Source of the DNA: Marinomonas pollencensis
GTDB lineage: Bacteria; Pseudomonadota; Gammaproteobacteria; Pseudomonadales; Marinomonadaceae
Reading direction: 5' to 3'
Assembly (NCBI RefSeq): GCF_003387375.1
Contig: NZ_QUNG01000009.1
Span: 62,001 to 126,000 of the forward strand
DNA: 64,000 nucleotides
Part shown: positions 50,810 to 55,175 of the stretch, piece by piece
Position numbering within the stretch: position 1 is the stretch's first letter
Layout of the letters: every line of letters begins with the position of its first letter
Notes under the pieces: model-generated
Seen by the model: the letters and a program-made list of their open reading frames with translations, nothing else
Databases searched by the model: none
What the model was told of the DNA's origin: nothing
Position numbers and translations under genes: made by a program

Positions 50810-52240
50810 TTATTTTTCAGGAGTTTCTCTTTGTGGCGCATTGCTTTTTCTGCGGCGACGTGGACGGCGCTTTTTAGGGCCTTCTTTGTCGTTCGAACGA
50901 GCATCGATGCTTTTAATGAGCTCTCTCTGTTCATGTTCGCTGGCAAATTGAAATGCTTCCCACCAAGCGCCCAGTCCACCCATTTCTGTGCCACTTAACT
51001 CGCGAATCAGCAAGAAATCAAATGCGGCACGAAAACGTGGGTGCTCAAGCAACACGAACGCCCGTTTACCGTAGCGTTTTGGTAAGCGGAATTGCATATC
51101 CCAAATTTCTCGCATTGGGGTAGAAAAGCGTCGCGGGATGGCCGTAGAAGCAACTTGGTTGTCTAGCACCATGCTAGCAGCCTGGTGTAAAGCTGGAGTG
51201 ATAGGCATGCCTTGGGCTTGGAATTCTTCATGGCGAAGCACAACGCTTGGCCATAACATCACCGCATATAAGAAGTAAGGCGCAGTAGTTTTACCTGCCT
51301 GTAGGCGCTTGTCTGTATTTTCTAAGCCTTGAAGAATAAAAGCTTCAGGGTTTATATCATCACGCTTCCAACCACTAACCAAGAGGGCTTCAGTGTCTGG
51401 GAACAGGTATTTGAAGAGACCGTATTGGCGTAATAAATGGAAAGTTTTAATGCCATTACCGCTGCCTAATAGTTTAAGGACTTCTTCAAACAAGCGTGCC
51501 GGTGGAATATGGTCCAGTAGGTGAGCCATTTCTTTTATTGGTGCGGCCGTTTCTTCTTCTATATCAAAGCCCAGTTTGCCAGCAAAGCGGATTGCGCGGA
51601 GCATACGTACCGGGTCTTCTTGATAGCGCTCTCTTGGGTCACCAATAATACGTATTTTTTTGTTTTCAATGTCTTCTAAGCCGCCACAATAATCATGGAT
51701 GCTAAAGTCCTGAACATTGTAATACAGAGCATTAAAGGTAAAGTCGCGACGTTCCGCGTCTTCTTCAATACTGCCATAGACATTATCACGGAGCATGATG
51801 CCGTGGGCAGAACGTGCCGAGTCTTTTCCTTTTAGCGATTCTTGCGGCTTACTCGCGCTATCATCTTTCGCTGAGTTGGCTCGGAATGTAGATACTTCGA
51901 TAATTTCACGGCCAAATGTCACGTGTACAAGACGAAAGCGTCGACCTATCAGTCGTGAATTGGAAAATAGATCGTGAATTTCTTCAGGAGTCGCGTTGGT
52001 AACGACGTCGAAATCTTTCGCATTAACGCCGATCAAGTGGTCACGAATACAGCCGCCAACAAGGTAAGCATCAAAGCCTGCTTTGTTTAAGCGATAAAGG
52101 ACCTTGACCGCGTTTGGGCTTAACTGCTGGCGAGATAAGCTGTGATCACTGCGCGGAATAATAATGGGATAAGTCTGAGCCTTAGGAGAGGCAAAGATTG
52201 AGGTGGCTTTACGTACCAGAGATTTTAATCCTGTAAGCAT
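50810..52240 (-). CDS. pcnB: Poly(A) polymerase I
   Basis: The 476-residue enzyme adds 3' poly(A) tails to RNA. It has the class II nucleotidyltransferase head ('YLVGGCIRDHLIGVNAKDFDVVTNATPEEI', 'RRFRLVHVTFG'), 'RDFTFNALYYN' and the RNA-binding neck ('EDPVRMLRAIRFAGKLGFDIEEET'), and ends with a basic Arg/Lys-rich tail ('KKRRPRRRRKSNAP') that suits RNA binding. The start at 52240 has the usual N-terminal extension. It lies downstream of the predicted CrcZ-like RNA and the CbrB-like gene, as in pseudomonads. Confidence 0.96.
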   Translation of the reverse strand: MLTGLKSLVRKATSIFASPKAQTYPIIIPRSDHSLSRQQLSPNAVKVLYRLNKAGFDAYLVGGCIRDHLIGVNAKDFDVVTNATPEEIHDLFSNSRLIGRRFRLVHVTFGREIIEVSTFRANSAKDDSASKPQESLKGKDSARSAHGIMLRDNVYGSIEEDAERRDFTFNALYYNVQDFSIHDYCGGLEDIENKKIRIIGDPRERYQEDPVRMLRAIRFAGKLGFDIEEETAAPIKEMAHLLDHIPPARLFEEVLKLLGSGNGIKTFHLLRQYGLFKYLFPDTEALLVSGWKRDDINPEAFILQGLENTDKRLQAGKTTAPYFLYAVMLWPSVVLRHEEFQAQGMPITPALHQAASMVLDNQVASTAIPRRFSTPMREIWDMQFRLPKRYGKRAFVLLEHPRFRAAFDFLLIRELSGTEMGGLGAWWEAFQFASEHEQRELIKSIDARSNDKEGPKKRRPRRRRKSNAPQRETPEK

Positions 52241-52353: not shown

Positions 52354-52656
52354 AAGCGATTATTCGAAAACAAAATAATCGCTTTGGATACATGAAGATA
52401 CTAGTTCCGAAAACAAAGTGGGTGCTGCTTATGCAGTTCTACTCAGGTTTTATTTTTATTATTGCAATGTTTTCATTGCCCGAAGGCTTCTATATCTAAA
52501 AAAATCAATTATCCAAAGCGATTTTCTATCCATAGCCTCAAGTTTTTATTTTTGTTTTAAGAGGCTACGGTGTTCCTATATCTTATTTTTATTGTTAAGA
52601 ACTTACACACGACGACTAACTTATTCTTATTCTTGGTCAATCTTATTATCGTTGTG
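52354..52656 (-). ncRNA. Predicted CrcZ-like Hfq-sequestering sRNA
   Basis: The gap between the CbrB-like gene and pcnB, where Pseudomonas encodes CrcZ, has no reading frame of quality but has these signals on the minus strand. A sigma-54 promoter at 52682-52667 places the transcript start near 52656. Downstream are four 15-base tracts each readable as five ARN triplets (52634-52620, 52596-52582, 52556-52542, 52463-52449), the Hfq distal-site pattern. Between them are a GCAATG-AAAA-CATTGC hairpin (52479-52464) and an 11-pair hairpin (52384-52354) used here as the provisional 3' end. The end is uncertain since no T-run follows it. Function inferred: titrate Hfq/Crc and relieve catabolite repression. 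Confidence 0.55.
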
Positions 52657-52682
52657 ATCTATATAAGGCATTTCTTGTGCCA
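52657..52682 (-). promoter_or_regulatory. Sigma-54 (-24/-12) promoter of the sRNA
   Basis: On the minus strand TGGCACAAGAAATGCC (52682-52667) fits TGGCACG-N4-TTGCW with GG and GC at the correct 24/12 spacing, differing at only a few less critical positions. The predicted start is near 52656. It lies about 100 bases past the end of the CbrB-like gene, whose product is a sigma-54 activator. Confidence 0.6.
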
Positions 52683-52760
52683 AAAATCATAATTCGTTGA
52701 ATTATATGGTTTTTGCGTTTTTCTTGTTCATATTTTTTACAATATCTTGCTCATTATTTG

Positions 52761-52797
52761 TGTTATTTGGTAACAAGTGTTACTTATTATTTGTTAC
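52761..52797. promoter_or_regulatory. Putative CbrB-type enhancer sites
   Basis: Half-sites TGTTAT (52761-52766), GTAACA (52770-52775), TGTTAC (52778-52783) and TGTTAC (52792-52797), including the palindrome GTAACA-AG-TGTTAC, lie 105-141 bases upstream of the predicted sRNA start. TGTTAC/GTAACA is, as I recall, the sequence bound by Pseudomonas CbrB. The last half-sites overlap the end of the CbrB-like coding region. Confidence 0.5.
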
Positions 52798-54216
52798 TTT
52801 TTTGGGTATACCAAGCTTTTGCCGTCTTTCCCATAGGCTTTTTCGAGAGATGCCCAAGGATTGGGCAAGTTGAGTCTCTGTCATCTTGTGTTGGTGCGTT
52901 AACACGAAATGTTTGAAATAGTCATCCAGGGTAGTGCCCTCTAATGGGGTCAATTGCTCACTGGTTTTGGTCGTTGTTTGCTGCGTTTTACTGCCGCTTA
53001 GGTGGGTAATCAATTTTAAGTTAGCGGCTTCAATCCGGTGAGGTGGGCTAAGAATAACAGCCCGTTCGATAGCGTTTTCTAGCTCACGGACATTGCCTGG
53101 CCAATTATGAGCTCGGATCGCTTTATCAAACTCTTTGTTGTAGTCCAGAGGTACGCGGTTGTGCTTTTTACAGGCCTTCTCAAGGAGGAATTTTGCAATC
53201 ATCGAAATGTCGTCACTGCGTTCGCGTAATGGTGGAAGCAGTAGTTCCATGACATAGAGGCGATAGTATAAATCTTCGCGAAAATAGCCCTTGCGAACCA
53301 TGTCGATTAGATCTCTGTGTGTCGCGGTGACCAAACGTACATTTACCTTGGTTGATTGAATCGCGCCGACTCGGCGGATTTCGCCTTCCTGTAGGACCCG
53401 CAGCAGTCTAGCTTGTGCTTCGAGAGGTAATTCACCGATTTCATCGAGGAATAAAGTGCCATTGTCTGCGGCGTATATTAACCCATCTCGTGCCGAGACC
53501 GCGCCAGTAAATGCCCCTTTCTCATGACCGAAAAGCTCTGATTCTATTAGGTTTTCTGGGATGGCTGCGCAGTTGACGCTGATCAATGGGTTGTTATGTC
53601 TGGTGCTTAAGTTGTGCAGCGCTTTGGCAACCAATTCCTTACCTGTACCCGATTCACCACGAATCAATACGGTAACGTCAGTGCTGGCTACTTTGCGAAT
53701 ATCGCTGAAAAGCTCGCGCATCGGCTCACAGTTACCAATGATGCCACTATCTAGCGCGCCTAAATTGTCGGCTTCTTGTTCTTTCTCAGAACGTGCAAAG
53801 AGCAGCGGAGGGATTGCTTCAGGTTCTGCTGTTTGTTTTGCCTTAGATGCTGGCGTGGTGTTTTCTAAGGCATCGATAACATGCTTTAGCAAATGCTCTG
53901 AGTCGGTGGGCAAAGGCAGGTAATACTTTGCTCCCATCGCCATCGCGTCGATGCCGCTATTTAGGCTAGGGCGAGCGTCTAGAACTAAGCGTGGAGGCGT
54001 CCCTTCGAGTGCTGACATATTGTCAGTGAATAAGGCTAAAATGGCTTGGTCTATAAGAAGTAGATCGAAGTCGGCCAGTTCATAGTATTTTTTCGCTTGT
54101 TCAAGGGTGTAGCATAGATTGACTTGAAAGCCATAGCGAGAGAGCCACCTGTCAGCTTCTTTGAGTGGTGAGTCTTCGGGACAAATTATCATAATATGAT
54201 GCATTTTTGGTGTCAC
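52780..54216 (-). CDS. cbrB: CbrB-like sigma-54 response regulator with degenerate receiver
   Basis: The 478-residue NtrC-class activator has a receiver-like N-terminus (residues 1-120), a sigma-54 AAA+ domain ('[14 protein letters not shown]', '[13 protein letters not shown]', '[22 protein letters not shown]') and a Fis-type HTH ('[22 protein letters not shown]'). It sits where cbrB sits in Pseudomonas (gluQ upstream, pcnB downstream). The receiver has kept the likely phospho-acceptor Asp ('DLLLID') but lost the switch Thr and Lys (positions read 'VLDA' and 'YLPLP') and the N-terminal acidic pair appears as CP or ED out of place. No cbrA lies before it. It may work without phosphorylation. 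Confidence 0.8.
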
Positions 54217-54293: not shown

Positions 54294-55175
54294 CTATAAA
54301 AAGTGAAGATCTTTTGGGGCAATTACCGTGGTGGTTTGTTGGCTTAGGCGTTGTGGTTTCCAGTTTTGAATAGCAACCGCCAAGGCTTCTGTGATGCTGG
54401 TTGCGTTTTGGGCGTCTATTTTCAAATAGCTCAATGCGCGTATTAGAGTGTCTAGGTCGCCATTTGGAATGGGCTTGGCGTGATTTTGCTTGCTGATTTT
54501 CTCAGCATCTTGATTGACGACCAGTGGGATGTGTCCGATCTGAGGGACTTGCCAGCCAAAAAGGTGGTACAGATGCAGCTGTTGTGCCGTGGTATCGATT
54601 AAATCAGCACCGCGTATTAGATGGGTGATACCTTGTAGATGATCGTCTACTACCACCGCAAGTTGATAGGAGAAATAGCCGTCTTTGCGTTTTAATACGG
54701 GATGATTACCATCTAAGTCGTCAGCAAAAGACATTGCGCCTTGAATCAGGTCTTGATAGTGATATTCCTCGTGATTGGTTCTTAGGCGCCAAGAGTGAGG
54801 TTGCGTTTCTGTGCTTTGACAAACGTGAGGGTGTAGGCCTGAATAAGCTTGTAAGGATTTTCTTGTGCAATTACAAGGAAAGACATTTTGACTCTGCTTG
54901 AGCTGGGTCAGATACGCTTCATAGCTGGCTGTGTGTTCGTATTGTAAGCGAACCGCCTCGTCAGAGATGAGTTGGTAACTTTCTAGTGTTGCTAGAATTT
55001 GCTGAGTGTATTCAGGGCGACATCGAACGGCATCGACATCTTCGATGCGGACTATCCAAGTACCTTGATGGTACTTTGCATCCACATAGCTCGCGAGTGC
55101 AGCGACTAGCGAGCCTAAGTGGAGTGGGCCGGTTGGCGAAGGTGCGAAACGGCCACGGTAACCTGATGAGATCAA
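54294..55175 (-). CDS. gluQ: Glutamyl-Q tRNA(Asp) synthetase
   Basis: The 293-residue GluQRS attaches glutamate to queuosine in the anticodon loop of tRNA(Asp). It has the class I synthetase catalytic core: 'RGRFAPSPTGPLHLGSLVAAL' (HIGH equivalent), 'RIEDVD', zinc-site 'FPCNCTRKSL' region with further Cys/His, and 'KISKQNHAKP' (KMSKS equivalent). It lacks an anticodon domain, as in GluQRS. It lies 1 base after dksA. Confidence 0.95.
   Translation of the reverse strand: MISSGYRGRFAPSPTGPLHLGSLVAALASYVDAKYHQGTWIVRIEDVDAVRCRPEYTQQILATLESYQLISDEAVRLQYEHTASYEAYLTQLKQSQNVFPCNCTRKSLQAYSGLHPHVCQSTETQPHSWRLRTNHEEYHYQDLIQGAMSFADDLDGNHPVLKRKDGYFSYQLAVVVDDHLQGITHLIRGADLIDTTAQQLHLYHLFGWQVPQIGHIPLVVNQDAEKISKQNHAKPIPNGDLDTLIRALSYLKIDAQNATSITEALAVAIQNWKPQRLSQQTTTVIAPKDLHFL

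Follow-up and report, generated by a model that had tools for sequence, protein, structure and literature searches.

The DNA studied here is a 64,000-nt stretch of the Marinomonas pollencensis genome (GCF_003387375.1, NZ_QUNG01000009.1, 62,001-126,000), hereafter the window, to which all coordinates refer. On its minus strand, the AT-rich gap between cbrB and pcnB orthologues contains four (ARN)5 tracts together with a -24/-12 promoter and CbrB-type subsites, and the candidate RNA lies between these two genes on the same strand, which is the location of CrcZ (Table 1). The flanking genes had been named in an earlier note on this DNA, and profile and reciprocal-match evidence agrees: the cbrB product matches Pfam Sigma54_activat (E 8.6e-72) and is the reciprocal best match of CbrB from a genome that carries Rfam CrcZ (G054), and pcnB matches TIGR01942 with 539 bits. 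The position upstream of cbrB, held here by gluQRS, is taken in most other families sampled by cbrA, a frame some 1000 aa long. The gap had also been described as having no reasonable ORF, which holds for its minus strand, where no ORF of at least 60 aa was found; on the plus strand the gap is overlapped by two mechanical ORFs, of 79 and 67 aa. A sigma70 scan gave sites no more frequent than chance. Ahead of pcnB, at 52299-52272 (-), lies a conserved block, GTGTAACTT...CACGTGTAGAAT, that may be pcnB's own promoter.

Table 1. Features of the cbrB-pcnB locus, in window coordinates
Feature	Position	Strand	Remarks
gluQRS	54294..55175	-	directly upstream of cbrB
cbrB orthologue	52780..54216	-	sigma54 activator; AAA+ and HTH conserved, receiver degenerate
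CbrB-type subsite GTAACA	52792..52797	-	inside the cbrB frame; sequence match to subsite in an excerpt of PMC6296734
CbrB-type subsite GTAACA	52778..52783	-	overlaps the cbrB stop codon
CbrB-type subsite TGTTAC	52770..52775	-	sequence match
-24/-12 (sigma54) promoter TGGCACAAGAAATGCC	52667..52682	-	kept in 35/35 same-genus genomes
Putative CrcZ-like RNA	52365..52656	-	start and end predicted; conservation, fold z -6.33, covariation
Predicted hairpin 1	52606..52656	-	ARN5 tract 52634-52620 in loop
Predicted hairpin 2	52572..52602	-	ARN5 tract 52596-52582 partly in loop, partly beside it
Predicted hairpin 3	52530..52570	-	ARN5 tract 52556-52542 in loop; 7/10 pairs changed on both sides
Predicted genus-specific 3' domain	52370..52529	-	long closing stem; contains ARN5 tract 52463-52449; U-rich stretch after
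pcnB (poly(A) polymerase)	50810..52240	-	TIGR01942, 539 bits

The -24/-12 promoter is present where it had been reported, with the correct GG-N10-GC spacing, and the predicted start of the RNA at 52656 is derived from its position. The consensus of the sigma54 -12 element is TTGC; that of TGGCACAAGAAATGCC is ATGC. Upstream of it lie three copies of the CbrB subsites, given as TGTTAC and GTAACA in an excerpt of PMC6296734. Such subsites number 130 within 250 bases upstream of 54 promoters, with 8.3 expected from base composition and at least one upstream of each of the 54; the 54 comprise 35 in the genus, which are not independent of each other, and 19 at loci of 17 other families. This count omits L039, L043 and L051, in which the promoter is not recognisable, and includes two promoters placed by hand (L040, which has GT for GC at -12, and L049). 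Because the GTAACA pair of the genus overlaps the end of cbrB, coding constraint contributes to its conservation. A sigma54 promoter with CbrB subsites, as expected of CrcZ, is thus found at the level of sequence. The genome has 59 matches to YTGGCAYN6TGC, which were all compared, as a control, over 300 bases downstream (289 at one site) and 200 upstream. The candidate promoter is followed by four ARN5 runs and each of the other 58 sites by none, and it alone has at least two subsites within 200 bases upstream. The same pattern read backwards has 19 matches in the genome, so about a third of the 59 sites may be chance.

The four ARN5 stretches that the earlier note counted in the 207 bases after the predicted start do exist, but that count is one base short: three of them lie within 207 bases, and the fourth is complete at 208. 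Across 5000 dinucleotide-preserving shuffles of the 207-base stretch the mean was 0.20 runs, with P(>=3) = 0.0002; for a 290-base stretch, with its four runs, the shuffle mean was 0.16 and four were reached in 0/5000. The four tracts correspond to the several (ARN)n repeats, with n of at least 4, that are expected of CrcZ. The combination of tracts and promoter is real and far above chance. When close relatives were compared for loss of either element, none was seen: the promoter is present in 35/35 same-genus genomes, and so is at least one ARN5 tract. Single ARN5 runs in three of these loci (L025, L028 and L032) are reached by 13-21% of shuffles and are not beyond chance.

In the same-genus alignment, identity per 20 columns is 0.76-0.99 across 52679-52380 and 0.52-0.76 in the hundred bases upstream of this conserved segment. 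It falls to 0.29-0.49 over 52359-52300, and a second conserved block (0.68-0.73) follows near pcnB. Searched across the genome collection, an exact 22-base pattern of the RNA occurs in 37 stretches, of which 36 are from Marinomonas and one is from Maribrevibacterium harenarium. Part of the genus has an extra AATCGCTT copy after the RNA (52370-52355, -), which could fold into a hairpin at the expense of the closing stem.

The RNA of the window has a predicted fold of -74.1 kcal/mol, and none of 200 shuffles was equally stable. In the 35-sequence alignment 99.6% of cells are paired, against 37-46% in slid controls, a comparison that favours the true register because the structure was predicted on the same alignment. 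Changes on both sides occur at 10 pairs (shuffles 3.1 +/- 1.2) and in 43 cells (shuffles 10.6 +/- 4.8); further pair types number 27, no excess over shuffles (mean 26.0; 162/500 reach 27). Seven of the ten doubly changed pairs are in hairpin 3 and one is in hairpin 1, of which the inner 7 pairs belong to the consensus fold and the outer pairs to the fold of the window sequence alone. In the 3' domain, each of two inner helices has a single covarying pair, seen in two sequences for one helix and in one sequence for the other. Hairpin 2 is missing from the RNAalifold result because the aligner shifted it; by anchored text count it has at least 5 contiguous pairs in 35/35. Three of the four tracts lie in predicted hairpin loops in 5/5 genus RNAs tested. 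At 17 loci of other families (19 units), hairpin loops hold 16 of the 59 ARN4 tracts, where shuffles average 6.2 and never exceed 13; in several lineages outside the genus no ARN4 tract lies in such a loop.

The 3' domain is where the decoy interpretation, set out below, meets its strongest competitor, namely that the RNA binds Hfq and works mainly through this domain, by pairing with mRNAs or through another protein, with the ARN tracts serving stability or recruitment. A simple decoy does not need a 3' domain that is nearly invariant, and this counts against the decoy reading: 13 of 14 pairs (columns 143-156 with 281-294) are identical in 35/35 sequences, while hairpin 3 varies at 7/10 pairs on both sides. 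The closing stem hardly varies on either arm and so gives by itself no covariation support. By its exact 22-base pattern the domain is seen only in Marinomonas and Maribrevibacterium, which counts in the same direction. That pattern was not found order-wide, whereas the promoter and ARN tracts were, and no second copy of the RNA was found in the same genome (next best E 0.28). On balance we consider a function mainly through the 3' domain unlikely, though it is the alternative to be taken most seriously.

That the conserved segment is instead a cis element, either the 3' end of the cbrB mRNA or the pcnB leader, seems very improbable. Such an element would fit a position between two genes on one strand, and a scan of the gap found no terminator-like site, including at the predicted 3' end of the RNA, where the conserved closing stem is followed by a U-rich stretch. 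However, the segment is served by a conserved sigma54 promoter of its own, with subsites, and the little-conserved stretch described above splits it from the second conserved block upstream of pcnB, possibly a promoter. Slightly less probable still is that the segment codes for a peptide of only about 24 residues, starting near 52533. In 24/35 same-genus sequences there is such a frame, 24-25 codons long and opening with ATG or GTG, but in 9/35 (L028-L032, L034-L037) the start or the frame is missing, truncated or changed, L024 and L026 have different starts, the few changes in the invariant stretch lack third-codon-position bias, and the GAGG is only 2 bases from the ATG. This small ORF of the 3' domain, which in the window has 24 codons (52533-52459, -), was judged unlikely. 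As for A-rich tracts arising by chance in AT-rich DNA with no RNA made, the gap is indeed AT-rich, but the earlier note was right to find AT-richness alone a poor explanation, and the shuffles, the 58 control sites and the covariation contradict a chance origin so consistently that we give it almost no weight.

We therefore return to the decoy reading. The segment 52656-52365 (-) is likely a small RNA and the positional orthologue of CrcZ, acting as a decoy for Hfq (and Crc). In this scenario the CbrB orthologue would bind the GTAACA and TGTTAC subsites about 90-115 bases upstream, and bound CbrB would activate the sigma54 promoter of the CrcZ-like RNA, which would titrate Hfq (and Crc) through its ARN tracts and so switch carbon use. 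From the promoter, subsites, tracts, fold, conservation and the presence of hfq and crc, all features read from genomes, we infer transcription, CbrB binding, Hfq binding and the decoy effect.

The RNA shares with Pseudomonas CrcZ (RF01675) its place between cbrB and pcnB, the CbrB-type subsites, the sigma54 promoter, several (ARN)n tracts, genomes that encode Hfq and Crc, and an A-rich 5' end (CACAACGATAATAAG in the Marinomonas RNA, CACAACAACAATAACAAG in locus L038). It differs in a predicted length of about 290 nt, against 407 nt for CrcZ in an excerpt of PMC4063720, which describes CrcZ as having six (ARN)n repeats in P. aeruginosa and as titrating Hfq by binding its distal face through A-rich tracts. 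It also differs in its genus-specific structured 3' domain, in the lack of a full-length CbrA and in the degenerate receiver of CbrB. A search of the window at the Rfam gathering level gave no match, and permissive matches to snoR29, SpF10, SSRC34_2 and RFPL3-AS1_2 were treated as chance. The covariance search against the CrcZ model that had been suggested as a check gave at most 11.5 bits (E 1 or worse) against the RF01675 cut-off of 95. The RNA is thus CrcZ-like by the evidence above, yet is not filed under RF01675. Among 38 loci tested, the cut-off was reached at five, from two families only.

Two further kinds of RNA invite comparison. CsrB and RsmZ display their motifs in hairpin loops and bind CsrA/RsmA through GGA motifs. 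The Marinomonas RNA resembles them as a putative decoy with repeated protein-binding motifs, but has ARN tracts predicted to serve Hfq, not GGA motifs for CsrA/RsmA; the comparison of such decoys is drawn in an excerpt of PMC4063720. CrcY and CrcX, named for P. putida and P. syringae in excerpts of PMC6296734 and PMC8871633, are alike in kind of RNA and control, but the Marinomonas genome is without a second RNA copy. In two loci of other genomes (L047 and L048), two tandem units of sigma54 promoter and ARN tracts lie between cbrB and pcnB and resemble a CrcZ/CrcY pair.

Both protein partners expected of a CrcZ are encoded. Hfq was found in 3/3 genomes tested. In this genome it has SIFLVNG where Hfq of G054 has SIYLVNG, a conservative change that we take to fall at distal-face Tyr25. 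The genome encodes two Xth-type proteins, one of them 46% identical to G054 Crc and with Crc (4jg3) as its best PDB match (8.4e-78); Crc is present in 35/35 same-genus genomes and was matched in 17/21 other families.

The control expected of CrcZ, a CbrA-CbrB phosphorelay, is not what the genus encodes. No full-length CbrA was found in the 35 same-genus genomes, where the best matches (177-221 bits) cover the transporter part only; a CbrA match above 700 bits was found in 17/21 other families sampled, in one of them (G055) as two pieces. CbrB identity to the L038 protein is 155/223 (70%) in the AAA+ domain, 34/58 (59%) in the C-terminal HTH and 30/119 (25%) in the receiver, so that the receiver columns that follow rest on a weak alignment. 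In that alignment the phospho-Asp column keeps Asp in 35/35, and Leu stands in the conserved Lys column and Asp in the Thr column in 35/35. The first column of the acidic pocket is acidic in 0/34 and the second in 1/34 of the sequences with letters there, with acidic residues one or two columns beyond. Given that full-length CbrA is gone and that the receiver lacks the conserved Lys and Thr/Ser, control of the RNA is probably not by CbrA phosphorylation, and the amount of CbrB or another signal probably takes its place. Two further families (G048, with a 236-bit partial CbrA match, and G046, with none) likewise lack a full-length CbrA match; in their CbrB (L054 and L057) Glu replaces the phospho-Asp and could mimic phosphorylation.

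The proposal of a CrcZ-type sRNA in the earlier note is supported by the conserved promoter and tracts, the subsites, Hfq and Crc, and is qualified by the low Rfam score, the lack of a full-length CbrA and the degenerate receiver. More tentatively, we consider it possible that Marinomonas has a rebuilt CrcZ cut loose from CbrA, with an orphan CbrB that is not switched by phosphorylation, Hfq sites in hairpin loops and a 3' domain with a second partner, and that the circuit came from an ancestor of the whole order rather than from Pseudomonadaceae.

NCBI taxonomy places Marinomonas in Oceanospirillales, and the genome grouping used here puts it in one order with G054, where Rfam CrcZ lies at the corresponding place (306.8 bits). 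From this order 115 genomes were drawn, and CbrB was matched in 100 of them with E at or below 1e-105. Among these 100, pcnB is next in 85, and 82 have a promoter preceded by a subsite at a distance of 60-160 bases. The full arrangement of subsite, promoter and at least one ARN5 tract after cbrB occurs in 77/100 genomes and 37/44 families, and at least two tracts with promoter and subsite occur in 67/100. Without Marinomonas's own family and that of G054, the full arrangement is still present in 70/93 genomes and 35/42 families. Downstream of the 82 promoters there are 223 ARN5 runs in total, where shuffles average 15 and reach at most 24. The full arrangement is missing in 23 of the 100 CbrB-bearing genomes: contigs end too soon in G035, G243, G290 and perhaps G299; tracts without a promoter and subsite by pattern are found in G040, G041, G258, G294, G317 and G322; a promoter with subsite but without an ARN5 tract in G042, G326, G046, G269 and G281; and neither in G051, G062, G257, G265, G266, G274, G293 and G306.

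Outside the order, 30 sampled genomes of the class have a CbrB-like match at 1e-95, and 19 of the 30 loci were analysed. Promoter, subsite and ARN tracts occur together in none of the 19, a promoter plus subsite in one, and any ARN5 run within 900 bases in one; pcnB was not found in the stretches analysed. CbrAB-like pairs in other gammaproteobacterial orders (L112-L131, minus L116) are without pcnB or the RNA; shortly after cbrB, GTAACA or TGTTAC sites occur in five of these loci (L113, L119, L123, L124 and L127).

Excerpts of PMC6296734 and PMC8871633 state that CbrAB is exclusive to Pseudomonadaceae; our survey disagrees at the level of gene content. The extension of the CrcZ range that the earlier note had foreseen is, by sequence, order-wide (77/100 genomes) rather than a matter of one new genus. 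A literature search found no paper on CrcZ in Marinomonas, an absence that is weak because most subscription journals were not covered. A control system reported from Pseudomonas and its near relatives thus appears to be present, by sequence, across many related families. If this is true, carbon control by an Hfq decoy would be ancient in a large bacterial order and not a Pseudomonas speciality, and would be open to testing in many organisms. The Marinomonas case, by parting the decoy RNA from the sensor kinase, would make the signal that sets the level of a CrcZ-type RNA directly testable, and the many natural variants could be used to ask how the display of ARN tracts captures Hfq. In two of the loci, the Rfam family P36 matches at L193 1377-1439 and L194 2945-3005, some 95-157 bases before CrcZ begins and near the expected position of the CbrB subsites.
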